Assembly (NCBI GenBank): GCA_947259355.1
Contig: CAMYMF010000020.1
Location: 3,484 to 45,545, forward strand
Length of the DNA stretch: 42,062 nt
Source of the DNA: an uncultured Nitrospirota bacterium
GTDB lineage: Bacteria; CG2-30-53-67
Direction: 5' to 3'
Part shown: one piece after another, positions 1 to 15,154 of the stretch
Position numbering within the stretch: the stretch's first letter is position 1
How the letters are laid out: each line of letters begins with the position of its first letter
Translations under genes and position numbers: made by a program
The notes under the pieces: generated by a model
What the model saw: only the letters and a program-made list of their open reading frames with translations
Told to the model about the DNA's origin: nothing
Database searches by the model: none

Positions 1-551
1 AGATGAAGCATCAGGACCCTCTGAACCCCATGGACGGAACTGATTTCACAGCACAGTTGGCCCAGTTCTCCAGTCTGGAGCAGCTCTTTGTGATCAATGA
101 GAACCTCGAGGGGCTCCAGGCCTATCAGGAGGATTTGGCGGCCCTGCAGGTCACCGATTACATTGGTCGGGAAGTGTTGAACGCGGGCAACGGCATCACC
201 GTCTCCGACGGCACGGTCAGTCGGGCGTCCTACCGCCTCTCGGAGAATGCGGCGCGCGGAAGTTTCACCCTCTACGACGCTCAGGGCGGTATTGTCCGGA
301 TCGTCGATCTTGGAAGAAAGGCCGCCGGCCTCTACGATGTCGTCTGGGATGGAACGGACATGGAGGGCAATGTCGTGCCCGATGGCACCTACCGTCTTCA
401 GAGCGACTTCTACGATGGCGACGGGGGGTATCTCCCCTCGCAGACTTACCAGACCTCGCAAGTGACGGGCATCCTCTACACCGAAGAGGGTCCGCGCCTG
501 GATCTCGGGGACCGATCGGTGCCCCTCCAGGATGTGGTCAAGATATACTGA
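1..551 (+). CDS. flgD: Flagellar hook-capping (scaffold) protein FlgD, 5' end missing
   Basis: The visible 182 residues begin inside the family's N-terminal export/assembly region: QDPLNPMDGTDFTAQLAQFS followed by SLEQL is the classic FlgD signature, which normally lies some tens of residues into the protein. The real start is therefore upstream of the window, and the Met at base 3 is internal. The rest fits the FlgD Ig-like/tudor core, including the segment running from GGIVRIVDLG to PDGTYRL near residues 93-132. In the family, FlgD caps the growing hook and allows FlgE subunits to polymerise outside the cell. It lies directly before the conserved small flagellar-operon gene and flgE, the usual hook-operon order. 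The stop TGA is at 549-551. The identification is secure; the N-terminus cannot be judged. Confidence 0.95.
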   Translation, partial: MKHQDPLNPMDGTDFTAQLAQFSSLEQLFVINENLEGLQAYQEDLAALQVTDYIGREVLNAGNGITVSDGTVSRASYRLSENAARGSFTLYDAQGGIVRIVDLGRKAAGLYDVVWDGTDMEGNVVPDGTYRLQSDFYDGDGGYLPSQTYQTSQVTGILYTEEGPRLDLGDRSVPLQDVVKIY

Positions 552-597
552 TTCGGCCCACCACGGAAGGTAAGGGTTGTTGCAAAGGAGCAGTTTC

Positions 598-987
598 ATG
601 GTTAAAACGATACAGAGCGCGCCGGTCCGGTCGACACCGCAGACGGAGCGGACACCCGCGCAGAGCGGGGGCCGCGTGGCCGGTGCCGGCGGGCGTTCTT
701 TTGACGCCATCCTCCAGGAGCAGGTGGCTGCCGGGGAACTCCGCTTCTCCCGCCATGCGGCGGAGCGGATGGCCAGCCGGAACATCCGGGTCAGTGAAAG
801 TGATCTGGCCCGCATGCGCGGGGCCGTGGAGCAAGCGGCGGCGCGCGGGATGAAAGACTCTCTTCTCGTGGTCGACCGGCATGCTTTCATCGTCAGTGTG
901 GAGAATCGAACGGTGGTCACGGCCCTGGACCGGGCGTCCATGCGGGACCAGCTGTTCACGAACATCGACAGCGCCGTGCTCCTTTGA
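598..987 (+). CDS. Conserved flagellar operon protein (TIGR02530-like), function unknown
   Basis: A 129-residue protein between flgD and flgE. ATG 598 is chosen because AAGGAG at 585-590 sits 7 bases upstream; an in-frame TTG at 577 has no such site. After a variable, disordered-looking N-terminus of about 45 residues, the rest matches my recollection of the small family found in hook operons of Gram-positive bacteria and deltaproteobacteria: LRFSRHAAERMASRNI, then KDSLLVVDRHAFIVSVENRT and FTNIDSAVLL at the very end. No catalytic motif, membrane segment or signal peptide is visible. Position suggests a role in hook assembly or its checkpoint, but that is inference. To my knowledge the family has no settled function. 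Confidence 0.85.
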   Translation: MVKTIQSAPVRSTPQTERTPAQSGGRVAGAGGRSFDAILQEQVAAGELRFSRHAAERMASRNIRVSESDLARMRGAVEQAAARGMKDSLLVVDRHAFIVSVENRTVVTALDRASMRDQLFTNIDSAVLL

Positions 988-1140
988 GGATGTGACAGGG
1001 CGGGACGCTTCGGATGAGGCGGCCCATGGCAGGAATGAAAAGGCCGGTCCCCGCAGGGGGAGGCCTTTCGCTGCGGACCGACGGAAGCAGCGACGGACGG
1101 AATGCCGGCGGGTGTGCCGTGTTCCGGAAAGGATGACATT
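988..1140 (+). other. Intergenic spacer with strong hairpin before flgE
   Basis: This 153-base gap holds a potential stem-loop at about 1039-1067. AAAGGCC pairs with GGCCTTT, and within it TCCCC pairs with GGGGA across a four-base loop, leaving a two-base GG bulge on the left arm. There is no T-run after it, so it is not a classical terminator. An RNA-processing or translation-buffering hairpin ahead of flgE is possible. The overlapping reading frames here look like shadows. No sigma-54 or sigma-28 promoter was recognised. GGAAAGGATG just upstream of 1141 supplies the flgE ribosome site. Confidence 0.45.
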
Positions 1141-2772
1141 ATGACCATACTCAGTTCTCTGTACTCCGGGGTGAGCGGGCTGACCACCAATGGCAATGCC
1201 CTCTCCATCATTGGAGACAATATCGCCAATGTCAATACCATCGGCTTCAAGACGAGCCGGGCCTCCTTTGCGGATGTGATGGCCTCGTCCCTTGCAGGGG
1301 CGGGCAGCAAACAGATTGGTCAGGGCGCCCGGCTCTCGTCCATTGAGGTGCAGTTCACGCAGGGCTCCTTTCAGACGACCTCCAACCCCACGGACCTTTC
1401 CATCGACGGGAAAGGCTTCTTCATGCTTCAGGATGACAACGGGGTCTACTTCAGCCGGGCTGGCCAGTTTCACTTCGACAAGGGCGGCGACCTGGTGAAT
1501 CCCTCGGGAATCCGCGTCCAGGGTTATGGGGTCGACCCGAACGGAAACATCACGGGGGCTCTGGGCAATATCAACATCTCCGGCATCTCGTCTTCACCCT
1601 GGGCGACCACCGAGGTCATCGTCGATGCCAATCTCGACTCCCAGGCGGCCATTCTCGGGTTGAATCAGACGCTGGCCTCCGGTCCTGCGAGTGCCACGAC
1701 GCTGGTCGGAGGCGAAACCCTGACGATCGATCTGGATGGCGACGGTGCCCAGAGCATCACCCTTGCGGCCAATACCACGGGCGCGGCCATTGCGACCGAC
1801 ATTCAGGCGAAGGTCCGGGCCCTCACAGCGGCCAGCCCCGCAAACCAGGCGGCCTTTGACAATTTCATCTGCACCTACAACGCCAGCACGGGCAGCTACA
1901 AACTTCTCTCCGGAACGAACACGGCGGCCTCGGCCGTGGCGGTGACCGGAGGCACAGGCCAGGCAGCGCTCAAGCTCGATGCGGCAGGGGGAGCGACCTC
2001 CTCGGGAGCATTTGACGTGGACGACCCCATTGACACCTCCAATTTTTCGACGGCGTTGACCGTTTACGACTCCCTCGGGAATCCCCACCAGCTCTCGCTC
2101 TATTTCCGTAAGGATACCATCAACGACTGGAGCTGGTATGCCGTGGTGAACGATGCGGACAACGGCAACGGCACGGGAGACGAGGTGCAGGCCCGGGGGA
2201 GCCTCTCTTTCGGGTCATCGGGAGAACTGGCCAAAATCAGTCCCGTGACCTTCACCACGGGCGGGTTCGACTTCCAGGGGGGCGCCCTGCAGGATCAGAC
2301 CGTCACCTTTGATTTCGGCACGGCCGTAGCCGATGGCGGCACGGGGGTGGACGGCCTGACACAGTACGGTCTGACCTCCTCCGCAACCTTCCAGAGCCAG
2401 GACGGCTACACCTCCGGTTCGCTGCGCAACATCAGTATCAGCTCCGACGGCGTCATGGTCGGCAGCTTTTCCAACGGCCGCACCAGCACCATCGCGCAAA
2501 TCGCCCTGGCCACATTCCAGAGCAACGAGGGGCTGACCCGAATCGGCGGGAACCTCTTTCTCGAATCGGCCGGATCGGGACAACCCATCGTCGGGCAGCC
2601 GAGCTCCGGCGGGCGGGGCAACATCAGTTCCAACTCACTCGAGCAGTCCACGGTGGATCTGGCCCAGGAGTTCGTGAACATGATCACCAGTCAACGCGGT
2701 TTCCAGGCCAACTCCCGCACCATCACCACCACCGATGAGCTCCTGCAGGAGCTCATCAACCTCAAACGATAG
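1141..2772 (+). CDS. flgE: Flagellar hook protein FlgE
   Basis: A 543-residue hook subunit. ATG 1141 gives the canonical N-terminus MTILSSLYSGVSGLTTNGNA followed by LSIIGDNIANVNTIGFKTSR, the rod/hook-family heptad segment with the ANVNTIGFK motif; a longer ATG at 1102 would add 13 unrelated residues. The C-terminus, with SLEQSTVDLAQEFVNMITSQ, RGFQANSRTI and a final LLQELINLKR, is the matching D0 coiled-coil helix. Between them lies a long Ala/Thr/Gly-rich middle (roughly residues 160-310) that corresponds to the variable surface domains. It is longer than the enterobacterial FlgE of about 400 residues, as is common in this group. FlgE polymerises into the hook after export by the type III gate encoded downstream. 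A perfect hairpin follows the stop. Confidence 0.97.
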   Translation: MTILSSLYSGVSGLTTNGNALSIIGDNIANVNTIGFKTSRASFADVMASSLAGAGSKQIGQGARLSSIEVQFTQGSFQTTSNPTDLSIDGKGFFMLQDDNGVYFSRAGQFHFDKGGDLVNPSGIRVQGYGVDPNGNITGALGNINISGISSSPWATTEVIVDANLDSQAAILGLNQTLASGPASATTLVGGETLTIDLDGDGAQSITLAANTTGAAIATDIQAKVRALTAASPANQAAFDNFICTYNASTGSYKLLSGTNTAASAVAVTGGTGQAALKLDAAGGATSSGAFDVDDPIDTSNFSTALTVYDSLGNPHQLSLYFRKDTINDWSWYAVVNDADNGNGTGDEVQARGSLSFGSSGELAKISPVTFTTGGFDFQGGALQDQTVTFDFGTAVADGGTGVDGLTQYGLTSSATFQSQDGYTSGSLRNISISSDGVMVGSFSNGRTSTIAQIALATFQSNEGLTRIGGNLFLESAGSGQPIVGQPSSGGRGNISSNSLEQSTVDLAQEFVNMITSQRGFQANSRTITTTDELLQELINLKR

Positions 2773-2780
2773 GATGTGTC

Positions 2781-2802
2781 GGGGGAGGCGCAAGCCTCCC
2801 CC
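2781..2802 (+). terminator. Perfect GC hairpin after flgE (terminator-like, no T-run)
   Basis: GGGGGAGGC at 2781-2789, the GNRA-type loop GCAA at 2790-2793, and GCCTCCCCC at 2794-2802 form a perfect 9-bp stem eight bases after the flgE stop. No T-tract follows. It may be a 3'-end stabiliser or a weak or Rho-assisted terminator for the hook operon. A similar GGGGC-GCAA-GCCCC hairpin occurs inside motB at 4641-4654. Confidence 0.5.
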
Positions 2803-3046
2803 GCCTGTCAAAGGCCTGACTCCCTCCGATTAACTTTGACGTGAGAGGATGCTTCCTGGATCCTCGCCGGCCGCACGCCGCGCGCATGGGCGTTGGTGTA
2901 GGCGACCCCGCCCCAGGGTACTGTGCGACCGTGCAGCAGACAAGCCTCATGTTTTCAATCAGATAGAGCCTGCGCAGGCGGGCCTGGTGCCAACGAGACG
3001 GCGGCCGCGCTTCGGCGCGACCGTGCCGGCGCCTGGCACGGCCGTT

Positions 3047-3062
3047 TGGCACACGGTTTGCT
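3047..3062 (+). promoter_or_regulatory. Sigma-54 promoter (-24/-12) upstream of motA
   Basis: TGGCACACGGTTTGCT matches the sigma-54 consensus (TGGCAC, five bases, TTGCW), with exactly ten bases between the invariant GG and GC. The predicted transcript start is about 3072, some 40 bases before motA. It would drive motA through fliA, since no later promoter is obvious in that run. A second TGGCAC at 3034-3039, 13 bases upstream, lacks a correctly spaced GC and may instead be half of the inverted repeat at 3021-3041. Confidence 0.85.
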
Positions 3063-3112
3063 TTAAAGGCCATAGGGTAAGGGACGGATAAACTCTGAAA
3101 GGATGCGCTTTC

Positions 3113-3877
3113 ATGGATATCGCGACCATTGTGGGAATTGTGACGGCCTTTGCACTGGTGCTGCTCTCGATCTTCCTCGGCAGCGGTTTGACCATCTTTA
3201 TCGACGTGCCCTCCGTGGCGATTGTGGTGGGCGGGGTCGTCGGCGTGACCTTGATCAACTACCCCCTCTCCGATCTTTTGAAAGTGACGAGCGTGGCCCT
3301 GAAGACGCTCTTTCCGACCAACAACAACCCCACCGAGATTGTCTCCAAGCTGGTGGAGTTTTCGGGAACGGCGCGAAAGGAAGGAATCCTGGCACTGGAG
3401 AACGCAGCGGCTGAGCTGAACCACGGTTTTCTAAAGAAAGGGATTCAACTGGCCGTCGACGGCCTGGAGAATCCATCGGTCCGGGAGATTCTGGAGATTG
3501 AAATCCAGAAACAGGAGGAGCGTCACAAGCTGGGCGCCGAGATCTTCACATCCATGGGAACCTATGGCCCGGCCATGGGCATGATCGGCACCCTCATTGG
3601 GCTGGTCCAGATGCTCCAGACCATGAACGATCCGAGCTCCATCGGCCCGGCCATGGCCGTGGCGCTGTTGACGACTTTCTACGGGGCCATCATGGCCAAT
3701 ATGCTCTTTCTCCCCATGGCCGGCAAACTGCGCAACAGCAGTGCCAAAGAAGTCTTCACCAATGAGCTGATCATGGAGGGGATTCTCGCCATCAACAGCG
3801 GCGACAATCCCCGCGTGGTGGAACAGAAGCTGCATTCATTCATTGCGCCTAAACTGCGCAAATCAAGTTTTAACTAG
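3113..3877 (+). CDS. motA: Flagellar stator protein MotA (MotA/PomA family)
   Basis: A 254-residue inner-membrane protein with the four-helix MotA/PomA pattern: two N-terminal hydrophobic segments (about residues 5-25 and 33-50), a charged cytoplasmic loop, then two more helices around residues 150-205. The family signature GPAMGMIGTLIGLVQML is followed by NDPSSIGPAMAVALLTTFYG. MotA surrounds MotB and uses ion flow to push on FliG in the C-ring; the cytoplasmic loop carries the charged residues that contact the rotor. The length is normal. ATG 3113 has GAAAGGAT about 8 bases upstream. It is the first gene after the sigma-54 promoter and is followed 35 bases later by motB. The sequence resembles Pom-type proteins, but the coupling ion cannot be read with certainty. 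Confidence 0.95.
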   Translation: MDIATIVGIVTAFALVLLSIFLGSGLTIFIDVPSVAIVVGGVVGVTLINYPLSDLLKVTSVALKTLFPTNNNPTEIVSKLVEFSGTARKEGILALENAAAELNHGFLKKGIQLAVDGLENPSVREILEIEIQKQEERHKLGAEIFTSMGTYGPAMGMIGTLIGLVQMLQTMNDPSSIGPAMAVALLTTFYGAIMANMLFLPMAGKLRNSSAKEVFTNELIMEGILAINSGDNPRVVEQKLHSFIAPKLRKSSFN

Positions 3878-3881
3878 TCCG

Positions 3882-3898
3882 GCCACCCGCACGGTGGC
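3882..3898 (+). other. Small perfect hairpin between motA and motB
   Basis: GCCACC (3882-3887), loop CGCAC, GGTGGC (3893-3898) form a 6-bp stem in the 35-base gap. There is no T-run. It could slow ribosomes or nucleases and help make more MotA than MotB (stators contain five MotA to two MotB), but this is inference only. Confidence 0.3.
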
Positions 3899-3912
3899 GC
3901 ACGAGGGACGGG

Positions 3913-4752
3913 ATGGCCAAAAAGAAGAAAGGGTGTAGCTGTGAACCGGGTCTGCCGGGGTGGATGGCCACCTTCTCCGACATGATGACGCTGTTGCTGA
4001 CCTTTTTTGTGCTGCTGCTCTCCATGTCGTCCCTGGACCAGCAGCGGATCAAAGAGGCCCTGGGGTCGCTAAAGGGGTCCCTAGGGGTTCTGCACGGTGG
4101 GACCAAGACCGAGGTCAATGTGCGGGAACTGCTGCCTTCCCTGGAGATGGTTGAGATCTCGCCCCGGCAGCTGGTGGACAAGGACTATGAACGGATTCGA
4201 CTCGAGCTTTATCGCAAGAAGATGGACAACAAGATTCGGGCGGACCGCACCGAGATGGGCATTCTTCTGCACATCGATAGCTCGGTGCTCTTCGGTCCGG
4301 GCCAGGCTGAGTTCGGCGCGGAAGCAGAGGCCGTCTTGAAAGATGTGGCAGAAATCCTGCGGGAAACCCGATGGCAGGTTCGTGTGGAAGGGCACACGGA
4401 CAATGTTCCCATCCGTACCGTCCGTTTTCCGTCGAATTGGGAGCTGTCCACGGCGCGCGCCGTCAACACCCTCCGCTTCTTTACAGAGCAGCAGAAGATG
4501 GAACCGGCCCGATTCTCAGCCGTCGGCTACGGCGAGACCCAGCCCGTCGCCTCCAATGAGGATACCGAGGGCAGGGCCCGCAACCGGCGGGTGACCGTTG
4601 TCCTCATTGAACCGTCCGGCGTGAAAAAAGAGCCACCGCAGGGGCGCAAGCCCCACGGGCGTGCGGAGAAGACCCGTTCCGGCAGATCGGGCTTCAGTTT
4701 CTCACTCAACATGAAACGGCGGGTGCTGGAACAGGCCCGGGGAGGAGAATAA
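3913..4752 (+). CDS. motB: Flagellar stator protein MotB (Pom-like N-terminus, OmpA-family C-terminus)
   Basis: A 279-residue protein with one N-terminal membrane helix and a periplasmic peptidoglycan-binding domain. The segment PGLPGWMATFSDMMTLLLTF then FVLLLSM carries the ion-binding aspartate at residue 23. The OmpA/MotB domain shows VEGHTDNVPI, NWELSTARAVN and ARNRRVTVV (about residues 155-230), which anchor the stator to the wall. The helix context (GLPxWMxTFSDMM) is closer to PomB than to enterobacterial MotB, so sodium use is possible but unproven. After the OmpA domain comes an unusual tail of about 45 Lys/Arg-rich residues. The stop TAA abuts the fliL ATG, which implies translational coupling. 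Confidence 0.95.
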   Translation: MAKKKKGCSCEPGLPGWMATFSDMMTLLLTFFVLLLSMSSLDQQRIKEALGSLKGSLGVLHGGTKTEVNVRELLPSLEMVEISPRQLVDKDYERIRLELYRKKMDNKIRADRTEMGILLHIDSSVLFGPGQAEFGAEAEAVLKDVAEILRETRWQVRVEGHTDNVPIRTVRFPSNWELSTARAVNTLRFFTEQQKMEPARFSAVGYGETQPVASNEDTEGRARNRRVTVVLIEPSGVKKEPPQGRKPHGRAEKTRSGRSGFSFSLNMKRRVLEQARGGE

Positions 4753-5271
4753 ATGGCGAAGAGCAAGGAAGACACCCAGGCGGACAACGGAGAGGTGAAA
4801 AAGGCTAAGAAATCAACCGGGAAGCTCGTGACCCTGCTTCTGATCGTGTTGCTCGTGCTCGGCGGCGGGGGGGTCGCGGCCTACAAGTTTGTCTTGAACA
4901 AGCCCGAAGCTGCGGAGACCGCCGAGGAATCTTCGGCCAAAGGCCCTGAAACCGACCTGGAAAAGCTCATCGGAACCATGGTGCGGCTTGACACCTTTCT
5001 GGTCAATATCGAGGGCGAGGGTGAGACGCGCTTTCTCAAGACCTCGCTGACGCTGGAGCTGGAGCGCGCCGATGTGCAGCGCGAAATAGAACTGCGCATG
5101 GACCAGATTCGGGACAATATTCTGGTGCTTCTGAGCAGCAAGAACTTCGCGGAAATCCGGAGCTTTGACGGCAAATACATCCTTCGGGAGGAGATCGAGG
5201 ATCAGTTGAACAACCTTCTGGTCACCGGTGCCGTGAAGAACATCTACTTTACCGAATTTGTGGTGCAGTGA
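4753..5271 (+). CDS. fliL: Flagellar basal-body-associated protein FliL
   Basis: A 172-residue single-pass membrane protein. A lysine-rich cytoplasmic start (about 22 residues) precedes one hydrophobic helix (about residues 24-45). The FliL domain follows, with the recognisable stretch VRLDTFLVNIEGEGETRFLK and later RDNILVLLSSKNFAEIRSFD, and ends in YFTEFVVQ. In characterised species FliL forms a ring around the stator and supports high torque. The order motA-motB-fliL-fliM fits that role. The ATG directly follows the motB stop, with GGAGGAG at 4740-4746 as ribosome site. The length is typical. Confidence 0.95.
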   Translation: MAKSKEDTQADNGEVKKAKKSTGKLVTLLLIVLLVLGGGGVAAYKFVLNKPEAAETAEESSAKGPETDLEKLIGTMVRLDTFLVNIEGEGETRFLKTSLTLELERADVQREIELRMDQIRDNILVLLSSKNFAEIRSFDGKYILREEIEDQLNNLLVTGAVKNIYFTEFVVQ

Positions 5272-5278
5272 GGCAACC

Positions 5279-6277
5279 ATGGCGGACATACTCGATCAGA
5301 GTGAAGTTGATGCACTGTTAAGGGGCGTGGCGTCGGGGGATCTGGAAACGGAGACCGACCAGCCGCCGTCGGATGCCGAGGAGATGGTCTATGATTTGAC
5401 CAATCCAGAGCGGATCATCCGGGGCAAGATGCCGGCCCTCACGGTGGTACACGACAAATTCGTCAAAGGGTTTCAGATGTCTCTGAGCAACTACCTGCGC
5501 AAAGACGTGGAAGTGCAGATCTTAAGTTTTGATGTCATGAAGTATGTCCGTTTCATTGAGACCATCCCCATGCCCGCAAGCCTGTGCATGTTGAAAGTGG
5601 CACCCAACAACGGGGTCATGATCGTCGTCATGGACGCCCAGATCGTCTTCAGCATGATGGACATTTTGTGCGGCGGCACCGGCAGCAGCCGGTTCAAAGT
5701 GGAGGGGCGGGATTTTACCGCGCTGGAGCAGCGCATCATTGAGAAGGTGGTCTTGCGCGCTGCGGAGGAAATGACAGCGGCCTGGAAGCAGGTGGTGCCG
5801 CTGGAGCTCTCTCTGGCGCGCATGGAAACGAATCCTCGCTTCGTGCAGTCCGTAGAGCGCACTGAGACGCTGGTGATCTACACCTTCGAAGTCGTCATGG
5901 ATCAGGTGACCTGCAACCTGCGCGTGTGCATTCCCTATTCCACCATCGAGCCCTTTCGCACACAGCTCTCCGGTGAGTTGCAGACGGAAAAGGTGCTCGA
6001 GCAGAATCAACGGGAGAACCGGCGTCTTCAGCGCGGCCTGAAGAAGATGTCCGTCGACCTGGTGGTGCAGGTCGGCCAGGGAGCGGTGACCTTTGGCGAC
6101 ATTCTTGAACTTTCGGAGGGCGACATCATCGAACTGGACCGGGACCTGGACAGCCCCTTTGATGTGCTGTGTGAGGGCGTTCCCAAGTTCTACGGGTTCC
6201 CCGGTCAGCACCGCTCCAAGATGGCGGTGCGGATTCAATCCGATTATGACAGTGACCAGGAGAAAGACCATGACTGA
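5279..6277 (+). CDS. fliM: Flagellar motor switch protein FliM
   Basis: A 332-residue C-ring protein. ATG 5279 is preferred over an upstream in-frame codon at 5258 that lies inside fliL, because it yields the expected N-terminus MADILDQSEVDALLRGV. That segment is the conserved peptide that binds phosphorylated CheY. The middle domain (about residues 50-230) and the C-terminal SPOA/FliN-like domain follow, with VVQVGQGAVTFGDILELSEG and the final GFPGQHRSKMAVRI block. FliM passes the CheY-P signal to FliG to change rotation direction. GAGG overlapping the fliL stop provides the ribosome site. The end overlaps the fliN start by eight bases. Confidence 0.97.
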   Translation: MADILDQSEVDALLRGVASGDLETETDQPPSDAEEMVYDLTNPERIIRGKMPALTVVHDKFVKGFQMSLSNYLRKDVEVQILSFDVMKYVRFIETIPMPASLCMLKVAPNNGVMIVVMDAQIVFSMMDILCGGTGSSRFKVEGRDFTALEQRIIEKVVLRAAEEMTAAWKQVVPLELSLARMETNPRFVQSVERTETLVIYTFEVVMDQVTCNLRVCIPYSTIEPFRTQLSGELQTEKVLEQNQRENRRLQRGLKKMSVDLVVQVGQGAVTFGDILELSEGDIIELDRDLDSPFDVLCEGVPKFYGFPGQHRSKMAVRIQSDYDSDQEKDHD

Positions 6278-6647
6278 TGAGAAGGATCAGGAAACGACGG
6301 CGGTCGATGCAACGGGGACACAGGCCCCCGCCGGTATGGCCACACAAAATATGGGCGCGACGGCAGACGTCGTGGAGGAGACCACGGCCCGGAGTATCGA
6401 CTTCGTTCTCGATTTGCCGCTGCGGGTAACGGTGGAGCTGGGGCGAACCAAAATGGTGGTCAACGATCTGCTACAGCTGGCCCAGGGCTCCATTGTGGAG
6501 CTGGAAAAACCCGCGGGGGAGGCGCTGGAGATTCTGGTCAACGAGAAGCTCATTGCCCGGGGCGAAGTGGTCTCCGTGAATGAAAAGTTCGGTATTCGGG
6601 TGACGGAGATCATCTCACCGACAGAACGTATTGAAAAGTTGGGGTGA
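6270..6647 (+). CDS. fliN: Flagellar motor switch protein FliN
   Basis: A 125-residue C-ring component. ATG 6270 overlaps the fliM stop (ATGACTGA), with AGGAG at 6258-6262 upstream, which implies coupled translation. The first 45 residues are low-complexity and acidic. The SPOA domain follows (about residues 45-120): DLPLRVTVELGRTKMVVND, then LAQGSIVELEKPAGEALEIL, KLIARGEVVSVNEKFGIRV and TEIISPTERI. FliN forms the base of the C-ring and helps dock the export ATPase complex through FliH. Length and motifs are typical. A long frame starting at 6093 inside fliM is not the gene start. Confidence 0.96.
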   Translation: MTDEKDQETTAVDATGTQAPAGMATQNMGATADVVEETTARSIDFVLDLPLRVTVELGRTKMVVNDLLQLAQGSIVELEKPAGEALEILVNEKLIARGEVVSVNEKFGIRVTEIISPTERIEKLG

Positions 6648-6652
6648 GCGTT

Positions 6653-7204
6653 ATGGACACGCACAGAGAGAGGCGCGCATATTCCATGGAGCGGTTGCTG
6701 TCAGGACTCCTCTGCTTCGGCATCCTCTGCTTGGCCGGGATGGTGACCGCCGACCCAGGCCACGGCGCTCTGTCGGCCAATTCGTCGGACGCAGTCATGG
6801 CAGTGCACGGGCTGGACAGTCCGCAGACGACGGGGCCCGAGGAAAATCGCGCCCCGCCGGACCTCATCCAGTCCGGCACGCGTCTTTTTTCCGCAACCCT
6901 CGTCGTCATTGCACTGCTGGCCCTGGGCTCCTACGGCGTGCGGCGATTCATGAACCACCGGAGCTTCCTCTCCGGGTCGGGGACGATGATTCGCGTCGTC
7001 ACCACACGCAGTTTGGGAGCCAGAAGCTCCCTCGCGGTCATTGAAATCGGCGAGGCTCGATTTGTCATCGGTGTGTCACCGCAGCGGATTTCTTTTCTGA
7101 CCGCGCTGGGCGGCGGGGACAACGGCGACGGTCTTTTGCGCGAGGCGTCTGGCTTTGCGCGGGAGCTGCAGAAGAGCACCGAGAAAGGCGGGGCAGGTTC
7201 ATGA
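6653..7204 (+). CDS. fliO: Flagellar export protein FliO
   Basis: A 183-residue protein between fliN and fliP. ATG 6653 is preferred because GGGGTGA lies just upstream; a GTG at 6644 and an ATG at 6686 are alternatives. The N-terminus contains a signal-peptide-like stretch (LLSGLLCFGILCLAGMV), then a periplasmic linker, a transmembrane helix (about residues 80-100, with ATLVVIALLALGSYGV) and the short cytoplasmic FliO domain (IRVVTTRSLGARSSLAVIEI, then FVIGVSPQRISFLTAL). FliO is a chaperone for FliP assembly in the type III export gate. The family is poorly conserved, so the call rests on both motif and position. Its stop overlaps the fliP ATG (ATGA). Confidence 0.9.
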   Translation: MDTHRERRAYSMERLLSGLLCFGILCLAGMVTADPGHGALSANSSDAVMAVHGLDSPQTTGPEENRAPPDLIQSGTRLFSATLVVIALLALGSYGVRRFMNHRSFLSGSGTMIRVVTTRSLGARSSLAVIEIGEARFVIGVSPQRISFLTALGGGDNGDGLLREASGFARELQKSTEKGGAGS

Positions 7205-7992
7205 CACCTTGTACCAGCCCTGTCATTGCAGGACGCAGAGGGTCGTGCGCGGCCCGCGTCGGGATCTGCGTCGTCGTGCTGTTGGGCATGGCGCTGTCCT
7301 GCGAGGCATTGACGATCCCCGATGTGCAGATTCGTGTGGCGGAGGCCACCGGACCGGAGCGGGTTTCGGCAGCGCTGCAGGTCATGGCGCTGCTCACCGT
7401 GCTGACGCTGGCGCCGGCCATTCTGATCTTGACGACGTCCTTTGTGCGCATCGTGGTGGTGCTCTCTTTTCTGCGCCAGGCCATCGGCACCCATCAGGTG
7501 CCTCCCAATCAGGTGCTCATCGGGCTCGCCCTTTTTCTGACGTTTTTTATCATGACCCCCGTGTGGCAACAGGTAAACCAAGGGGCTCTCCAGCCTTATC
7601 TGAAAAAGGAGATCACCCAGGAGACGGCGTATCACAGCGCCCTGCAACCGATCCGGAAATTCCTTTTCGCCCAGACGCGGGAGAAGGACCTCATGCTTTG
7701 TCTGAAAATGTCGGGTGATGGGAAGCCGGCCAACCGCGACGCCGTTGCGACGGTACCCCTGGTGACGGCTTTCGTGCTCAGCGAGCTCAAGACAGCCTTT
7801 CAGATCGGTTTTCTGATCTACATTCCCTTTTTGGTGCTCGACATGGTGGTGGCCAGCATCCTGCTCTCCATGGGGATGATGATGCTGCCCCCCATCATCA
7901 TTTCGCTGCCGTTCAAGCTGATGCTCTTTGTACTGGTGGACGGGTGGTATCTGGTGGTGGGGTCTCTGATTAAGAGTTTTCACACGCTGTAG
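7201..7992 (+). CDS. fliP: Flagellar type III export gate protein FliP
   Basis: A 263-residue membrane protein starting at the ATGA overlap with fliO. A signal-peptide-like N-terminus (about 35 residues) precedes the two FliP signatures: TSFVRIVVVLSFLRQAIGTH with PPNQVLIGLALFLTFFIM, and TREKDLMLCL followed by FVLSELKTAFQIGFLIYIPF, SMGMMMLPPIIISLPFKLML and FVLVDGWYLVV. Four hydrophobic helices are apparent. FliP forms a pentamer that, with FliQ and FliR, builds the helical export pore at the centre of the basal body. All core motifs are intact, in contrast to fliR downstream. There is a 31-base gap to fliQ. Confidence 0.97.
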   Translation: MTPCTSPVIAGRRGSCAARVGICVVVLLGMALSCEALTIPDVQIRVAEATGPERVSAALQVMALLTVLTLAPAILILTTSFVRIVVVLSFLRQAIGTHQVPPNQVLIGLALFLTFFIMTPVWQQVNQGALQPYLKKEITQETAYHSALQPIRKFLFAQTREKDLMLCLKMSGDGKPANRDAVATVPLVTAFVLSELKTAFQIGFLIYIPFLVLDMVVASILLSMGMMMLPPIIISLPFKLMLFVLVDGWYLVVGSLIKSFHTL

Positions 7993-8023: not shown

Positions 8024-8293
8024 ATGACGGCGGATTTCGTGGTGGGATTCGGGAAGGAGGCGCTGCAGCTGACGCTGATGCTGTCCTTGCCGCTGCTTGT
8101 TACGGGGATGGTCATCGGATTGCTGGTCAGTATCTTTCAGGCGGCGACGCAGATTCAGGAGATGACCCTCATCTTTGTGCCGAAGATCCTGGCCGTCATG
8201 GCGGCGTTGATTTTCTTTTCCCCCTGGTTGCTGGAAATCCTGACGAGCTATACCACCCGGTTGTACATGAACATACCGATCTATCTCCGGTAG
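8024..8293 (+). CDS. fliQ: Flagellar type III export gate protein FliQ
   Basis: An 89-residue protein of two hydrophobic helices, the normal size for FliQ. The family segment GLLVSIFQAATQIQEMTLIF with FVPKILAVMAAL is clear and complete. Four FliQ subunits pack around the FliP5FliR1 core of the export pore. AGGAG lies about 10 bases upstream of ATG 8024. It is followed by a 39-base gap and fliR. Confidence 0.96.
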   Translation: MTADFVVGFGKEALQLTLMLSLPLLVTGMVIGLLVSIFQAATQIQEMTLIFVPKILAVMAALIFFSPWLLEILTSYTTRLYMNIPIYLR

Positions 8294-8332
8294 GACAGAA
8301 TTGTCCGCCGGTCTGTCTGCATGGGAGCGAAG

Positions 8333-9004
8333 ATGAACCCCCTGTCACTGCCGTTTGAGCAATTTGAATGCTTTGTGCTGATTCTGATTCGGGTCTTGGC
8401 CATTGTGCTTGTGCTGCCGGTGGTGTCCGGCCGGCAGGTGCCGATGGCCGTGAAGCTGGGGTTGTCCCTGGTGCTGGCCCTCGTGGTCCATCCCACCGTC
8501 CAAGCCACGGGGGTCGCGGTGCCTCGCAGCGGTCTTGCGCTGCTGTTGGTCGTAAGCGTCATGGACCCCCAGGGCAGCCAGCAGCTTTCCATCATTGCCA
8601 TCTTTGAGCATCTGCTGGCCATGTTCCTCTTCTTTGTCTTCAACGTCCACCATGTGTTGATTCAGGGAGTGGCCGAGAGTTTCCGTCTCATCCCGCTGCT
8701 GCAGGGGCGTTACCCGCTGTCGGTGATGGAACAGCTGCTGCGGAATTCGGCTGCACTCTTTGTGACGGCCATTCAGGTGGGTGCGCCGGTGATGGCGGTG
8801 CTTCTGTTCGCCAATCTCTCCATGGGGCTCATTGCGAAAACGGTGCCCCAGATGAATGTGTTCATTGTTGCTTTTCCGGTGCAGATCGGGGTGGGGCTGC
8901 TGATGCTGGGCCTCAGTCTTCCGGTGACGGCCGGGATGTTTCAGAGGATCTTCGTCACCCTGGGTCGGGACGTGGGGGTCCTCCTTCGGTTGATGGCGGG
9001 ATAA
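8333..9004 (+). CDS. fliR: Flagellar export gate protein FliR with an apparent internal in-frame deletion of about 37 residues
   Basis: A 223-residue protein (ATG 8333 with GGGAGCGAAG upstream; ATG 8321 is the alternative). Family members are about 255-265 residues. The N-terminal third aligns well (VPMAVKLGLSLVLALVV, as in E. coli VPKRVKLGLAMMITFAI), and so does everything from VMDPQGSQQLS onward (HLLAMFLFFVFNVHHVL, AESFRLIPL, MGLIAKTVPQMNVFIVAFPV). Between LALLLVV and SVMDPQ, near base 8550, the conserved block corresponding to E. coli [20 protein letters not shown] and onward through the GLQMGLSFA motif is absent. The frame is open, so this is a clean deletion and not a frameshift. FliR seeds assembly of the FliPQR pore, so function is doubtful unless the sequence is mis-assembled here. 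It is followed 2 bases later by flhB. Confidence 0.9.
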   Translation: MNPLSLPFEQFECFVLILIRVLAIVLVLPVVSGRQVPMAVKLGLSLVLALVVHPTVQATGVAVPRSGLALLLVVSVMDPQGSQQLSIIAIFEHLLAMFLFFVFNVHHVLIQGVAESFRLIPLLQGRYPLSVMEQLLRNSAALFVTAIQVGAPVMAVLLFANLSMGLIAKTVPQMNVFIVAFPVQIGVGLLMLGLSLPVTAGMFQRIFVTLGRDVGVLLRLMAG

Positions 9005-9006
9005 TC

Positions 9007-10074
9007 ATGGCGGGTCCGTCCGATCAGGAAAGAACCGAGCGCGCAACACCAAAAAAGCGGGAAGATGCCCGTCGGCGGGGGGAGGTGGCCAAGAGCCGCG
9101 AGGTGGTGTCGACCACGGTCTACCTCTTTGTCCTGGTTGTGCTCTACCTTTCGGGCTCCTACCTTCTGGAGCGGATCCTGGTTATGTTCCGGGGGTATCT
9201 ATCGCAGTCAACGGAGGTGACGGTGTCGCTGGCCAATCTCAATCTGCTCAGCCTTCAGGCTGTCAGCCACTTTCTGCTCATCCTGGCGCCGGTGATGGCC
9301 GTGGGCGTGGTGGCGGCCGTTGCGGGAAATGTCATGCAGTTCGGGTTTCTGATGACCGGCGAGACGCTCGTGCCCGACGTGGGAAAATTGAACCCTCTCA
9401 AAGGGCTGGGACGGCTTGTATCGAAGCACACGGTCATGGAGGCGGCCAAGTCGGTGGCCAAGATCGTCATTGTTGCCTCTCTGGCCTACTCGGTCATCCG
9501 TTATGAATTCCTCCATCGGCTGCCGACACTGGGGGCCATGGACGTGGCGGGGATTTTCCTCTACGTGACGCAGGTCTCCTTCACGATTCTCATGCGGGTG
9601 CTCTGGTTTCTCATTATCCTGTCCTTCATCGACTATCTCTTTCAGCGCTGGCAGTACGAAGAAAAGCTGAAGATGACGAAGCAGGAGGTGAAAGATGAGG
9701 TCAAACAGCGTGAAGGCGATCCCATGGTCAAGGCCCGTGTGCGGAGCATTCAGCGGGAGATGGCTCGGCGCCGTATGCTGGCCGAGGTCCCGGGCGCGGA
9801 CGTGGTCGTGACCAACCCCACCCATTTGGCGGTGGCGCTGAAATACGATCCGGACAAAGGCCCGGCGCCGCGGGTGGTCGCCAAAGGGGCGCGTTTCATC
9901 GCGGAGAAGATACGCCACCTGGCGAAAGAGCACGGCGTGCCGCTCGTGGAGGACAAGCCGCTGGCCCAGGCCCTTTATCAAGGCGTCCGCCTCGGCGGAT
10001 TCGTGCCGGAGAATCTCTATCGGGCGGTGGCCGAGATTCTTGCCTATGTGTACAGCTTGAAACGACGGCGCTGA
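9007..10074 (+). CDS. flhB: Flagellar export switch protein FlhB
   Basis: A 355-residue protein. The N-terminus (DQERTERATPKKREDARRRG EV) is the highly conserved FlhB start. Four transmembrane helices follow, then a cytoplasmic domain containing the autocleavage motif NPTH at residues 270-273 within VVVTNPTHLAVALKYD. It ends with ARFIAEKIRHLAKEHGVPLV and EDKPLAQALY. Cleavage between N and P allows the switch from rod/hook to filament substrates. A lysine/arginine-rich linker (about 215-250) joins membrane and cytoplasmic parts. The length is typical and all key residues are present. ATG 9007 follows the fliR stop by two bases. Confidence 0.97.
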   Translation: MAGPSDQERTERATPKKREDARRRGEVAKSREVVSTTVYLFVLVVLYLSGSYLLERILVMFRGYLSQSTEVTVSLANLNLLSLQAVSHFLLILAPVMAVGVVAAVAGNVMQFGFLMTGETLVPDVGKLNPLKGLGRLVSKHTVMEAAKSVAKIVIVASLAYSVIRYEFLHRLPTLGAMDVAGIFLYVTQVSFTILMRVLWFLIILSFIDYLFQRWQYEEKLKMTKQEVKDEVKQREGDPMVKARVRSIQREMARRRMLAEVPGADVVVTNPTHLAVALKYDPDKGPAPRVVAKGARFIAEKIRHLAKEHGVPLVEDKPLAQALYQGVRLGGFVPENLYRAVAEILAYVYSLKRRR

Positions 10075-10133: not shown

Positions 10134-12200
10134 ATGAACCGTAAGGACTTGCTGCAGAGCATACAACGCCACCGGGAGCTGGCCCTGGTCGTGGGCGTCG
10201 TCGTGGTGCTGGGGATCATGGTCCTGCCCCTGCCGCCCGCGCTCATGGACATGCTGCTCTTCGCGAACATCGCCTTTTCGCTGGTGATTCTCTTCGTTGG
10301 CATCTATGCGGCGAAACCTCTCGATTTTTCCATCTTTCCCAGCGTGCTCCTCATGGTGACACTTTTTCGGCTCTCGTTGAATGTGGCGTCGACCCGGCTC
10401 ATTCTGCTCCACGGGGGCGACGGCACCCGGGCCGCAGGAAAGATCATTCAGGCCTTCGGCACTTTTGTGGTGGGCGGCAATTACGTGGTGGGCATGGTGG
10501 TCTTTCTCATTCTGGTGGTCATCAATTTCGTGGTCATCACCAAAGGCGCCGGCCGGATTGCGGAGGTGGGGGCCCGCTTCACCCTGGACGCCATGCCGGG
10601 CAAACAGATGAGCATCGACGCGGACCTCAATGCCGGTCTCATCAATGAGCGGCAAGCCAAGGAACGGCGTGAAGAGATTGAACGGGAGGCCGATTTCTAC
10701 GGTGCCATGGACGGTGCGAGCAAGTTCGTCCGGGGCGATGCCGTCGCCGGCATCATCATCACCCTGATCAATATTCTGGGCGGGCTGGTGATCGGAGTGC
10801 TCCAACAGGGAGCTTCCCTGGCTGAAGCGGCCCAGACCTACACCCTGCTGACGGTGGGAGACGGTCTGGTATCCCAAATCCCCGCCCTCATCGTCTCCAC
10901 GGCCGCCGGCTTGATTGTGACCCATTCTGCCTCGGGCACGACCCTGGGCAACGAGGTGCTGAATCAGATTTTCATGAACGTGCGGGCCGTTGGCGCAGCG
11001 GCTGCTATTCTGTTCGTGCTCGGTCTGATTCCGGGCTTGCCGCAGGTGCCGTTTCTGCTCTTCTCCTCGGCCATGGGCGGGGCCGCCTATTGCCTGCATC
11101 TACGGCAGCAGGCGGCGCGCCGGCAGGCCGAGGCCGCCGTGGCAGCACCGGAACCGGGGCCGGAGCCTGTGGCGAAGCTGCTCCCCCTGGATCTGCTGGA
11201 ACTGGAAATCGGCTATGGCATGATTCCTTTGGTGGATCGCGAACAGGACGGAGATCTCCTGGAACGTATTCGCTCTGTCCGAAGGCAGTTTGCTTCCGAG
11301 ATGGGCGTGCTGGTGCCGCCGTTGCACATCCGTGACAATTTGAAACTCAAGGGAGGCGAGTATGTGATTCTGATCAAAGGGGAGTCGGTGGCCCGGGGTG
11401 AAGCGGTCATGAAACACCTGCTTGCCATGGACACCGGCACGGTGAGCGAGGTGATCCCGGGCATCGAAACCCGGGAGCCGGCTTTTGGACTGCCCGCGCT
11501 CTGGATTCCCGAATCCGATCGGGAGAAGGCGCAGATGTTGGGGTATTCCGTCGTGGATCATGCCACCGTGGTGGCCACCCATCTCACGGAAGTCATCCGG
11601 AACCACGCCCACGAACTGATGGGGCGCCAGGAGGTGCAGACGCTGCTCGATCACTTCGCGGAGGCCTACCCCAAGGTGGTGGAAGAGCTGGTGCCGGGAC
11701 TTCTCTCTCTGGGTGCGGTACAGAAAGTACTGCAGAATCTGCTCCGGGAAAAGATCCCCATTCGCGATCTGCGCACCATTCTGGAGACCCTGGCGGACCA
11801 TGCGGAGTTTACAAAGGACACCGATCTGCTGACCGAGTCCGTGCGGCAGAACCTCTCGCGGGCCATCACCCGCCGCTACCTGGACCATCAGCGGGGACTG
11901 CGGGTCATCACGCTGGATCGGCAGGTGGAAGATCAGATCGCGGAGACACTCCGGCCGCAGGAGACCGGTCGCACCGGGGTCCTAGAGCCCGGCGCGGTGC
12001 AGAAGGTTCTCTCCCGTATCGGAAAGGCCATGGAGCGGATGGCGTCGATGAACCTGGAGCCCGTCCTGCTCTGTTCGCCGCAGATTCGATTGCATCTCCG
12101 ACGGTTGACGGAGCGGTTTCTCCCCGATCTGGTGGTGATCTCCCACGCGGAAGTATCGCCCGATGTGACGGTTCATTCCATTGAGTCGGTGAGGTTATAA
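10134..12200 (+). CDS. flhA: Flagellar export gate protein FlhA
   Basis: A 688-residue protein with about eight N-terminal membrane helices (residues 15-310) and a large cytoplasmic C-terminal domain. The FHIPEP signature is evident: VEVGARFTLDAMPGKQMSID preceded by NFVVITKGAGRIA and followed by ADLNAGLINE. FlhA forms the nonameric cytoplasmic ring that receives substrates and chaperones and links to proton flow. CGGAG ahead of ATG 10134 serves as ribosome site. The C-terminal domain shows VPPLHIRDNLKLKGGEYVIL, IPIRDLRTILETLADHAEF and VVISHAEVSPDV, all typical. The stop is one base before flhF, so the genes are translationally linked. Confidence 0.97.
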   Translation: MNRKDLLQSIQRHRELALVVGVVVVLGIMVLPLPPALMDMLLFANIAFSLVILFVGIYAAKPLDFSIFPSVLLMVTLFRLSLNVASTRLILLHGGDGTRAAGKIIQAFGTFVVGGNYVVGMVVFLILVVINFVVITKGAGRIAEVGARFTLDAMPGKQMSIDADLNAGLINERQAKERREEIEREADFYGAMDGASKFVRGDAVAGIIITLINILGGLVIGVLQQGASLAEAAQTYTLLTVGDGLVSQIPALIVSTAAGLIVTHSASGTTLGNEVLNQIFMNVRAVGAAAAILFVLGLIPGLPQVPFLLFSSAMGGAAYCLHLRQQAARRQAEAAVAAPEPGPEPVAKLLPLDLLELEIGYGMIPLVDREQDGDLLERIRSVRRQFASEMGVLVPPLHIRDNLKLKGGEYVILIKGESVARGEAVMKHLLAMDTGTVSEVIPGIETREPAFGLPALWIPESDREKAQMLGYSVVDHATVVATHLTEVIRNHAHELMGRQEVQTLLDHFAEAYPKVVEELVPGLLSLGAVQKVLQNLLREKIPIRDLRTILETLADHAEFTKDTDLLTESVRQNLSRAITRRYLDHQRGLRVITLDRQVEDQIAETLRPQETGRTGVLEPGAVQKVLSRIGKAMERMASMNLEPVLLCSPQIRLHLRRLTERFLPDLVVISHAEVSPDVTVHSIESVRL

Positions 12201-12201
12201 G

Positions 12202-13458
12202 ATGCAGATCAAGAAATACGAAGCCGTGGACATGCCATCGGCCATCCAAATGATCAAGCGGGAACTGGGCCCTGAGGCGGTGATCCTCTCCACGCGACAG
12301 CTTCGCAAAGGCCGGGGGCACTTCGGCCTCTTCGGGCGTCCCATGGTGGAGGTCACCGCGGCCGCGGACCGGGCGGAACCGTCCCCGCATGCAGCGCGCC
12401 CGTCCGAGCATCCGGCCGCGGTGTCATCAGCGGCCCCGCAGCACGACCGGCGGCGGTCGCCGGATATCTCACCGTGGCTCGCGCCGATCCAAGCAGAACT
12501 CCAGGAGATCCGCGCCGGCATGGAACAGCTGCAGGGTAGCCAGTCGAGCCCGCAGGCGCTTCAAGTGCTGATGGAGGAATTCCACTCTGTGCGCCACCTG
12601 CTGGAGTCTTCCCTCCGAGAGGGCCGAGAGAGTTCTCTGGCGAAGTATCCGCCCTTTCTCCGGCAGATGGGGCAGCGGCTGCTGGTCAGCGAAGTCGACG
12701 AAGGGATTGTACAAAAGCTGCTGCAGGGAATGCAGACACGGTTGCCTGAGAGCTGCTACGGCACGGCGCAGACCGCGGAGATTTCCATGAAGCGGGTTCT
12801 CGAGAATGCCCTGAAGGTTCAGGGCGGGCTGCGCCTTAACGGAAAGGGGCCGAGGAAGGTAGCACTTATCGGGCCGACGGGTGTGGGCAAGACGACCACC
12901 CTCGCCAAGATCGCCGCCGAGTATGCCTTGTCGAAAAAGCACAAAGTCGCCCTCGTCACCATCGATACCTACCGCATCGCCGCCATTGAGCAATTAAAGA
13001 CCTATGCAAACATCATCGGCATTCCGGTGGAGGTGGTCGTCCACGGTGAGGATCTGGCACGGGCCTGCGACGGGCACCGCGACAAGGAACTGATTCTCAT
13101 CGATACCGCCGGGCGAAGCCATCGCAACGCCGTCCAGATCCGGGAGCTGGAGGCGGCGCTCCAGGGACGGCGGGATCTGGAAAAGCATCTGGTCTTGAGT
13201 ACGACCACGAAACCGGCCGATCTTGCGGACATTCTGCGCAACTTCAAGCCTGTCGGATACGACCATTTGCTTTTCACCAAAATCGATGAGGGAAGCCATT
13301 TCGGCACCATCCTGAGTGCCGTCCTGCAGACGGGAACGGCCGTCTCCTATCTCACGAACGGTCAGCGCGTTCCCGAGGACATTCAGCAGGCCGACACGGG
13401 CGATCTGGCGGCGCTGATTCTGGCCGCGCGGCGCGGGGCACCTGCGCCGGCGGCTTGA
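12202..13458 (+). CDS. flhF: Flagellar placement GTPase FlhF (SRP family)
   Basis: A 418-residue protein. The N-terminus MQIKKYEAVDMPSAIQMIKR with LGPEAVILSTRQLRKG is the FlhF B-domain start. A disordered Ala/Pro-rich linker (about 55-95) and a helical N-domain follow, and then the SRP-type GTPase: P-loop GPTGVGKTT at residues 224-232, VALVTIDTYRIAAIEQLKTY, LILIDTAGRS and FTKIDEGSHFGTIL. FlhF marks the flagellar site, usually the cell pole, and recruits the first export components, in balance with FlhG. GTGAGG lies about 8 bases upstream. Presence of flhF-flhG suggests polar flagellation, as an inference. Confidence 0.96.
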   Translation: MQIKKYEAVDMPSAIQMIKRELGPEAVILSTRQLRKGRGHFGLFGRPMVEVTAAADRAEPSPHAARPSEHPAAVSSAAPQHDRRRSPDISPWLAPIQAELQEIRAGMEQLQGSQSSPQALQVLMEEFHSVRHLLESSLREGRESSLAKYPPFLRQMGQRLLVSEVDEGIVQKLLQGMQTRLPESCYGTAQTAEISMKRVLENALKVQGGLRLNGKGPRKVALIGPTGVGKTTTLAKIAAEYALSKKHKVALVTIDTYRIAAIEQLKTYANIIGIPVEVVVHGEDLARACDGHRDKELILIDTAGRSHRNAVQIRELEAALQGRRDLEKHLVLSTTTKPADLADILRNFKPVGYDHLLFTKIDEGSHFGTILSAVLQTGTAVSYLTNGQRVPEDIQQADTGDLAALILAARRGAPAPAA

Positions 13459-13512
13459 GAGGACGGTGTACGGAGTGCATAGACAATGGGGGGACCGTTC
13501 AGGGAGGATTCC

Positions 13513-14382
13513 ATGGACCAAGCAGGAACATTGAGGAAAATGACACGGCGGGACGACCGGGGCAAAGTGGCGGCGGTGTCCGGCGTAAAAGTCATCGCCG
13601 TGACCAGCGGCAAGGGCGGTGTGGGCAAGACCAATGTGGTGGCCAACCTGGGCTATGCCTTGGCCACGCTCGGCAAGAAAGTCATGGTGTTGGACGCGGA
13701 TCTTGGTCTGGGTAATCTCGACATTCTTCTGGGACTGACGCCGAAATACAACCTGACCGATGTAATTCACCATCGCAAGAAAGTGCGCGAGATCATCGTG
13801 GAAGGCCCCGGCGGTATGAAAATTCTTCCCGCGAGCTCGGGCATCCAGGAAGTCACCCATCTGAGCAACGGCGAGAAGCGCAACCTCATTGCCCAGATGG
13901 ATACCCTGGAAGAGGAGATGGACTTTCTCCTCATCGACACGGCCGCGGGCATCTCCTCAAACGTCATGTTCTTCAATGTCGCGGCCCATGACATTCTCGT
14001 GGTAACCTCTCCGGAGCCGACGGCCATCACGGACGCCTATGCGCTGATGAAGGTGATGTCCACACGCTATTCGGAAAACCGGTTCCAATTGCTCATCAAT
14101 GGCGTCCGGTGCGAGTCGGAAGCCAAAGATGTTTACAAGAAACTGTGCACGGTGGCCGATCGATTCCTGAATATTGCCATCGACTATGTGGGCCACATCG
14201 TCCAAGACCCCGTCGTGACCCGTGCCGTCCGGGAGCAGACAGCCATCTCCCAGCGCTACCCCGGCTCGCCCGCGAGTACCTGTTTCCGACGGCTGGCGCG
14301 GGCCTTGTCCACGCGGCACGGCGAGGTCCATCCCAAAGGCAATATCCAATTCTTCTGGAAGCGAATCTTCCAGGTGGCTTAG
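13513..14382 (+). CDS. flhG: Flagellum number regulator FlhG (MinD-like ATPase, FleN/YlxH)
   Basis: A 289-residue ParA/MinD-type ATPase. ATG 13513 is chosen because GGGAGG lies 5-6 bases upstream; ATG 13486 has no comparable site. The deviant Walker A KGGVGKT is at residues 34-40 within VIAVTSGKGGVGKTNVVANL. DADLGLGNLDILLGL and FLLIDTAAGISSNVMFF complete the nucleotide site. FlhG stimulates FlhF GTPase activity and limits flagellar number; in Pseudomonas the homologue FleN also restrains the sigma-54 activator FleQ. The short N-terminal leader contains the kind of Q-and-R-containing segment through which FlhG activates FlhF, though that is only suggestive. fliA starts 19 bases downstream. Confidence 0.94.
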   Translation: MDQAGTLRKMTRRDDRGKVAAVSGVKVIAVTSGKGGVGKTNVVANLGYALATLGKKVMVLDADLGLGNLDILLGLTPKYNLTDVIHHRKKVREIIVEGPGGMKILPASSGIQEVTHLSNGEKRNLIAQMDTLEEEMDFLLIDTAAGISSNVMFFNVAAHDILVVTSPEPTAITDAYALMKVMSTRYSENRFQLLINGVRCESEAKDVYKKLCTVADRFLNIAIDYVGHIVQDPVVTRAVREQTAISQRYPGSPASTCFRRLARALSTRHGEVHPKGNIQFFWKRIFQVA

Positions 14383-14401
14383 ATGTTAGACGAGGTGGTG
14401 G

Positions 14402-15154
14402 ATGCAGGAAGCCCAGAAGGCATACAAGAAGGCACCCCAGGACTTTGATCCCGCCAAACGGGATGAGATGATTGAGGAACTGGCGCCGCTGATCAAGTTT
14501 ATCGCCCACCGTCTTTCGCTGCGCCTGCCGTCCCACGTGGAAGTGGACGACCTCATCAGTGCAGGCGCACTCGGGCTGATGGACGCCATCGAAAAGTTCG
14601 ACCCCACGCGGGGCATCTTGTTCAAGACCTACGCGGAGTTTCGAATCAAGGGGGCCATGCTCGATGATCTGCGCGCCCAGGATTGGGTCCCCCGATCGAT
14701 CCGCCAGAAAGCGGCCGTCCTGGAGCGGGCGTACGAAGAGATCGAACAGCGGGAGGGCAGACCGGCCACCGACGAAGAGGTGGCGGAGGCCCTCGACATG
14801 GCCATGGAAGTCTTCTATGACCTGCTCAACAGTGCGCGGGGACTCTCCCTCATCAGCATTGACGGGGCGGAGGATGAAATGACCCTGAACAAGCGGGTTT
14901 TGGAGTCCCTCACCACGCCCTCCGAGGACAATCCCTTCCATCAGCTCCGGCGCAAAGAGCTCAAAGAGGTGCTGGCCCGTGTCATCGATCAGCTGCCGGC
15001 GAAGGAAAAGACGGTCGTCTCCCTCTATTATTATGACGAGCTGACGATGAAGGAGATCGGCAACGTGTTGAACATCACCGAGTCGAGGGTTTCTCAGATT
15101 CACACCCAGGTGATGCTGCGCCTTCGGGGGAAACTCAAGAAGATGTATGGCTGA
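14402..15154 (+). CDS. fliA: Flagellar sigma factor FliA (sigma-28)
   Basis: A 250-residue group 3 sigma factor. Region 2 is seen in HRLSLRLPSHVEVDDLISAG followed by ALGLMDAIEKFDPTRGILFK and YAEFRIKGAMLDDLRAQDWV. Region 3 starts at PRSIRQKAA. Region 4 is KTVVSLYYYDELTMKEIGNV with LNITESRVSQIHTQ. This is the FliA/WhiG pattern. ATG 14402 has GAGGTGG just upstream. As the last gene of the motor/export operon it would be made after sigma-54 activation and direct late genes. A sigma-28-type promoter lies only 72 bases after its stop, in front of the chemotaxis operon. An anti-sigma factor (FlgM) is not in this window. Confidence 0.97.
   Translation: MQEAQKAYKKAPQDFDPAKRDEMIEELAPLIKFIAHRLSLRLPSHVEVDDLISAGALGLMDAIEKFDPTRGILFKTYAEFRIKGAMLDDLRAQDWVPRSIRQKAAVLERAYEEIEQREGRPATDEEVAEALDMAMEVFYDLLNSARGLSLISIDGAEDEMTLNKRVLESLTTPSEDNPFHQLRRKELKEVLARVIDQLPAKEKTVVSLYYYDELTMKEIGNVLNITESRVSQIHTQVMLRLRGKLKKMYG

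Follow-up and report, generated by a model that had tools for sequence, protein, structure and literature searches.

An apparent in-frame loss of 37 codons in fliR of an uncultured bacterium of candidate phylum CG2-30-53-67 and its probable consequence for the flagellar export gate

As assembled, the fliR gene of an uncultured bacterium belonging to the candidate phylum CG2-30-53-67, which was previously known from a deep-groundwater MAG (PMC10591310), lacks exactly 37 codons in frame, and we consider a real and recent 111-bp loss-of-function deletion in the population behind the MAG to be the best explanation, with a probability of roughly 0.6. We infer that the source reads carry the deletion and that FliR function is lost. 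The gene lies in a stretch of 42,062 nucleotides, termed here the window (G000:C20:3484-45545), of a genome of 3.1 Mb in 94 contigs (89.7% complete) that is very probably an uncultured MAG, as suggested by the N gaps in the assembly and by the relatives. A contig of the same-genus genome G001 is collinear with the entire 42 kb window at a DNA identity of 80-85% (blastn), and the genes are listed in Table 1.

Table 1. Flagellar genes of the window and the position of the deletion in fliR.
Feature	Position	Strand	Evidence
flgD (5' end cut by scaffold gap), flgE, motA, motB, fliL, fliM, fliN	3..6647	+	
fliP, full length, M-loop (GMMML) intact	7201..7992	+	TIGR01103 above cut-off; alignment
fliQ, full length	8024..8293	+	TIGR01402 above cut-off
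fliR with in-frame 37-codon deletion	8333..9004	+	PF01311 and TIGR01400 in two pieces; alignment with G001, G003, G005
Deletion junction in fliR	8549..8550	+	blastn break and base alignment vs G001
flhB, full length, start 3 bases past fliR stop	9007..10074	+	TIGR00328 above cut-off
flhA, full length	10134..12200	+	TIGR01398 above cut-off
flhF, flhG (MinD-like), fliA; intact vs G001	12202..15154	+	

Extent of the loss and conservation of the segment in relatives

FliR has 223 amino acids when read from the ATG that aligns with the relatives, or 227 from an in-frame ATG at 8321, compared to 260 amino acids in G001. The blastn alignment breaks exactly at window position 8549|8550, corresponding to 18679|18791 of G001:C161, and the 111 bases in between (C161 18680-18790, i.e. 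37 codons) are absent from the window. In the base alignment the join forms a hybrid codon (8549-8551, G|TC) encoding Val, and the residues lost are 73-109 of G001 FliR, all 37 of them, which correspond to residues of about 74-110 in Salmonella when mapped via an alignment to the solved Salmonella FliR. The first-pass annotation, which had described a FliR of 223 residues against about 260 in the family, short of about 37 residues with the frame intact, was thus accurate in length and extent, and the break lies inside the range 8533-8570 that it gave. On either side of the break the sequence aligns cleanly with G001, the two FliR proteins are 88% identical at aligned sites, and the order fliPQR-flhB-flhA is conserved. 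Of the 230 positions of the family model PF01311, the window FliR matches 3-46 and 96-227 as two separate pieces, and 47-95 are left unmatched; with 147 bits the cut-off is passed, though not over the whole family length, whereas the score of 135.6 bits against the equivalog TIGR01400 is below the cut-off of 168.6. In contrast, PF01311 matches in one piece in G001 (same genus), in G003 and G005 (same family) and in G006 and G007 (other family). Surveys with PF01311 in the phyla of two further, more distant hits covered only 3 and 1 genomes, respectively. All 37 residues of the block are kept in 82 of 82 aligned relatives, a sample that is tilted to intact genes, as two of the six search patterns fetching most of them fall in the block, and among the lost positions are the invariant or near-invariant columns G81, F92, G99, Q105, and G107. 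Taken at the level of sequence, the clean flanks, the complete block in all 82 relatives and the split PF01311 match indicate that the break is neither chance nor misalignment. The proposed alignment with close relatives therefore bore out the loss, with 111 extra bases in G001 and 37 extra residues in all relatives; since these are other species, however, the extra 111 bp are no test of an assembly error.

Around the boundaries that correspond to the join, none of G001, G003, and G005 has microhomology or a direct repeat of at least 7 nt, and on the sequence of these three relatives a deletion between direct repeats or slippage in the sense of phase variation was rejected. Likewise, neither a second FliR or SctT nor a stray copy of the lost segment was found elsewhere in the genome, while the segment query matched G001, G003, and G005 as controls; a second copy or a relocated segment was thus rejected. 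As to FliR in other bacteria, that of Nitrospina sp. LS_NOB has an in-frame TGA within the match, leaving ~231 residues, and for many Nitrospina FliRs the alignment reaches only about residue 233. In the literature on natural fliR lesions, judged by titles and the openings of abstracts, we found no report of a natural FliR without this helix.

Predicted structure of the lost segment and effect on the gate

FliR is present as one copy in each 5:4:1 gate, its residues 71-155 are FliP-like, and the R-plug at about 106-122 faces the channel (Husing et al., PMC8239009). An AlphaFold model of the G001 FliR (54 sequences, mean pLDDT 83) contains one helix from residue 67 to 106 followed by the plug loop, and in Foldseek it matches the solved FliR with a TM of 0.82 and an rmsd of about 3.6 A. 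The model of the window FliR (mean pLDDT 72) has a 5-residue stub at the site of the helix, in a region with a pLDDT of 33-47, and matches only FliR/SctT chains, with a TM of about 0.5 and an rmsd of 8-13 A. According to these models, the lost part is one long helix (G001 67-106) plus the first part of the channel plug, and not a helical hairpin as had been supposed from the sequence alone. The FliP-like helix ahead of the plug (Salmonella 71-105) is absent in the window FliR and present in all 82 relatives. A weak PF01311 match also extends through a stop codon shortly before fliR, in the fliP-fliQ region, in G003 (E 6e-8) and G001 (E 1.6e-6), which agrees with the view that FliR is structurally a fusion of FliP and FliQ.

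If the deletion is real, it would take away the first helix of the second FliP-like hairpin of FliR, along with the hinge and the residues with which the R-plug begins. The FliP5-FliQ4-FliR1 gate is closed by FliR as a single subunit, and without this helix the remaining protein should fail to pack into the ring. Furthermore, the parity of membrane crossings past the lost helix may change and might lead to misinsertion, although the membrane topology of FliR homologs is uncertain (PMC5158082). The gate would then probably stay unassembled, and cells bearing the allele would have neither hook nor filament. Because the lost length is divisible by three and the fliR stop codon lies beyond the deletion, flhB and the genes after it should be translated as usual.

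Real deletion, assembly error or a working short FliR

The best surviving alternative is a local assembly error, according to which the cells have an intact FliR of 260 amino acids and 111 bases were dropped when the flanks were joined by the assembler or during gap closing; we regard this as possible, yet on balance doubtful. The assembly is MAG-like and scaffolded, with nine N-runs, each 8-170 bases long, over the 1.26 Mb that was read, about one per 140 kb, not counting G000:C13:1-20000, a stretch that is entirely N. One scaffold gap of 17 N (G000:C20:3467-3483) just ahead of window position 1 splits the 5' end of flgD; it lies on the contig that carries fliR, about 8.3 kb upstream of the gene, and since G001 has 25 bases in its place, the N-runs do not give exact gap sizes. 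The flagellar genes next to fliR are also intact and under normal constraint, and fliR itself is undecayed, as would be expected of a working gene. FliP, FliQ, FlhB, and FlhA had been called complete before, and all four are indeed of full length. Within the block from flgD to fliN internal coding gaps relative to G001 do not exceed one codon in the genes measured, and flagellin, FliF, FliG, FliE, FlgC, and FliH are found as open frames elsewhere in the genome. A general decay of flagellar genes was therefore rejected, and the normal constraint on the other flagellar genes, as in a working flagellum, counts against an inactivating deletion. However, the join in fliR is free of N and its flanks share no sequence in the three relatives, so that scaffolding or the collapse of a repeat is not a ready cause, and a join made from k-mers requires reads that span it. 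The absence of an overlap or repeat that an assembler could collapse thus supports a real deletion. Moreover, no clean coding gap of at least 10 codons besides that in fliR was present in the window genes and 144 further ORFs compared to G001 (58,130 codons), six flagged gaps each having one badly aligned flank; fliR was left out of this automatic comparison, most likely by the overlap filter, and was measured separately against G001. The join without N or overlap and the lack of any other clean gap in the 144 ORFs favor a real deletion moderately, whereas a length that keeps the frame would arise one time in three with a real deletion and an artefact alike.

The remaining FliR bears on the age of such a deletion. 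Compared to G001, dN/dS is 0.135 for fliR, 0.138 for fliP, and 0.119 for flhB, and with G003 and G005 as outgroups six FliR changes fall on the window branch and seven on that of G001. Hence, the remaining FliR has neither relaxed selection nor an acceleration on the window branch. Full neutrality over the branch would predict about 97 changes, and the share of the branch without selection is at most about 11% (one-sided 95% bound), both being rough estimates. As the remaining FliR is under ordinary purifying selection, a loss of its function, if any, must be recent.

The same values, with branch changes that are about equal, would also fit a shortened FliR that still works, in a gate that has adapted to the loss of the helix, with the end of helix 2 leading straight into what is left of the plug, but we consider this improbable. 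Such a protein is compatible with the frame being kept and with Salmonella FliR, in which replacement of 109-120 leaves the cells motile with the pore opened to ions (PMC8239009); that change, however, hit only the plug loop and left the helix untouched, whereas the helix lost here is found in all 82 relatives and the AlphaFold model reproduces the FliR fold poorly. FliP, with eight changes on the window branch and one on that of G001, could have compensated for the loss, but this imbalance (chi-square 5.4) is non-significant over 15 genes and the changes sit in the N-terminal and periplasmic part of FliP. Since these positions are outside the pore, a compensation by the FliP pore was rejected. 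That FliR without the pre-plug helix is naturally functional, i.e. that the gate can close and secrete although the hairpin of FliR is short of one limb, appears highly improbable. A FliR that always lacks the segment as a feature of the lineage has next to no chance, as the same-genus genome G001 and G003 and G005 of the same family, the relatives having fliR, carry the segment in full; a clade-specific short FliR was thus rejected and is refuted for the genus, though a short FliR could be fixed within this one species.

Of the three options that the first-pass annotation had left side by side, the lost export gate is therefore preferred to an assembly error, which stays as the rival, but is not proven, and a working short FliR is disfavored by the predicted structure. 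Loss of the bases in culture is very unlikely, because the nearest relatives are MAG records and an N gap lies on the contig of the window. In the sister genus, which belongs to the same family, FliR, FlhA, and flagellin are all absent from G002 (97% complete) and G004 (95%), and this genus appears to be without flagella; flagella are thus dispensable in the family. A real and inactivating deletion would capture the loss of the flagellum at its first step, in a candidate phylum that includes a flagella-less sister genus. If the deletion is real and FliR is active, this would conflict with how the FliPQR gate is currently understood to be built, and if it is an artefact, it cautions against inferring motility or its loss from single genes of a MAG.

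Comparison with known export gates

The window FliR resembles FliR/SctT of type III export gates (PF01311, TIGR01400; 9k29, 6f2d/6r69, 6s3s) in its operon position fliP-fliQ-fliR-flhB-flhA and in keeping helices 1-2, most of the plug, the second half of the hairpin, and a conserved FliQ-like C-terminal hairpin, but differs from them in the 37 residues (Salmonella about 74-110) that comprise the whole pre-plug helix and the start of the plug. Like the Salmonella FliR variants engineered to carry SGS or a similar sequence in place of R-plug residues 109-120 (PMC8239009), the window FliR is altered in the channel-facing plug region. However, those variants keep the helix, are motile and leak ions, whereas the window FliR has lost the helix and retains most of the plug. 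Deletion of fliR in Vibrio alginolyticus reduced the swarm diameter from 35 to 3 mm, and loss of fliR therefore costs motility (PMC10166871). A loss of motility is likewise predicted here, but unlike the whole-gene knock-outs made in the laboratory the deletion in the window is partial, in frame, and either natural or made by the assembly. It is probably a fairly ordinary fliR lesion and no new kind of machine.
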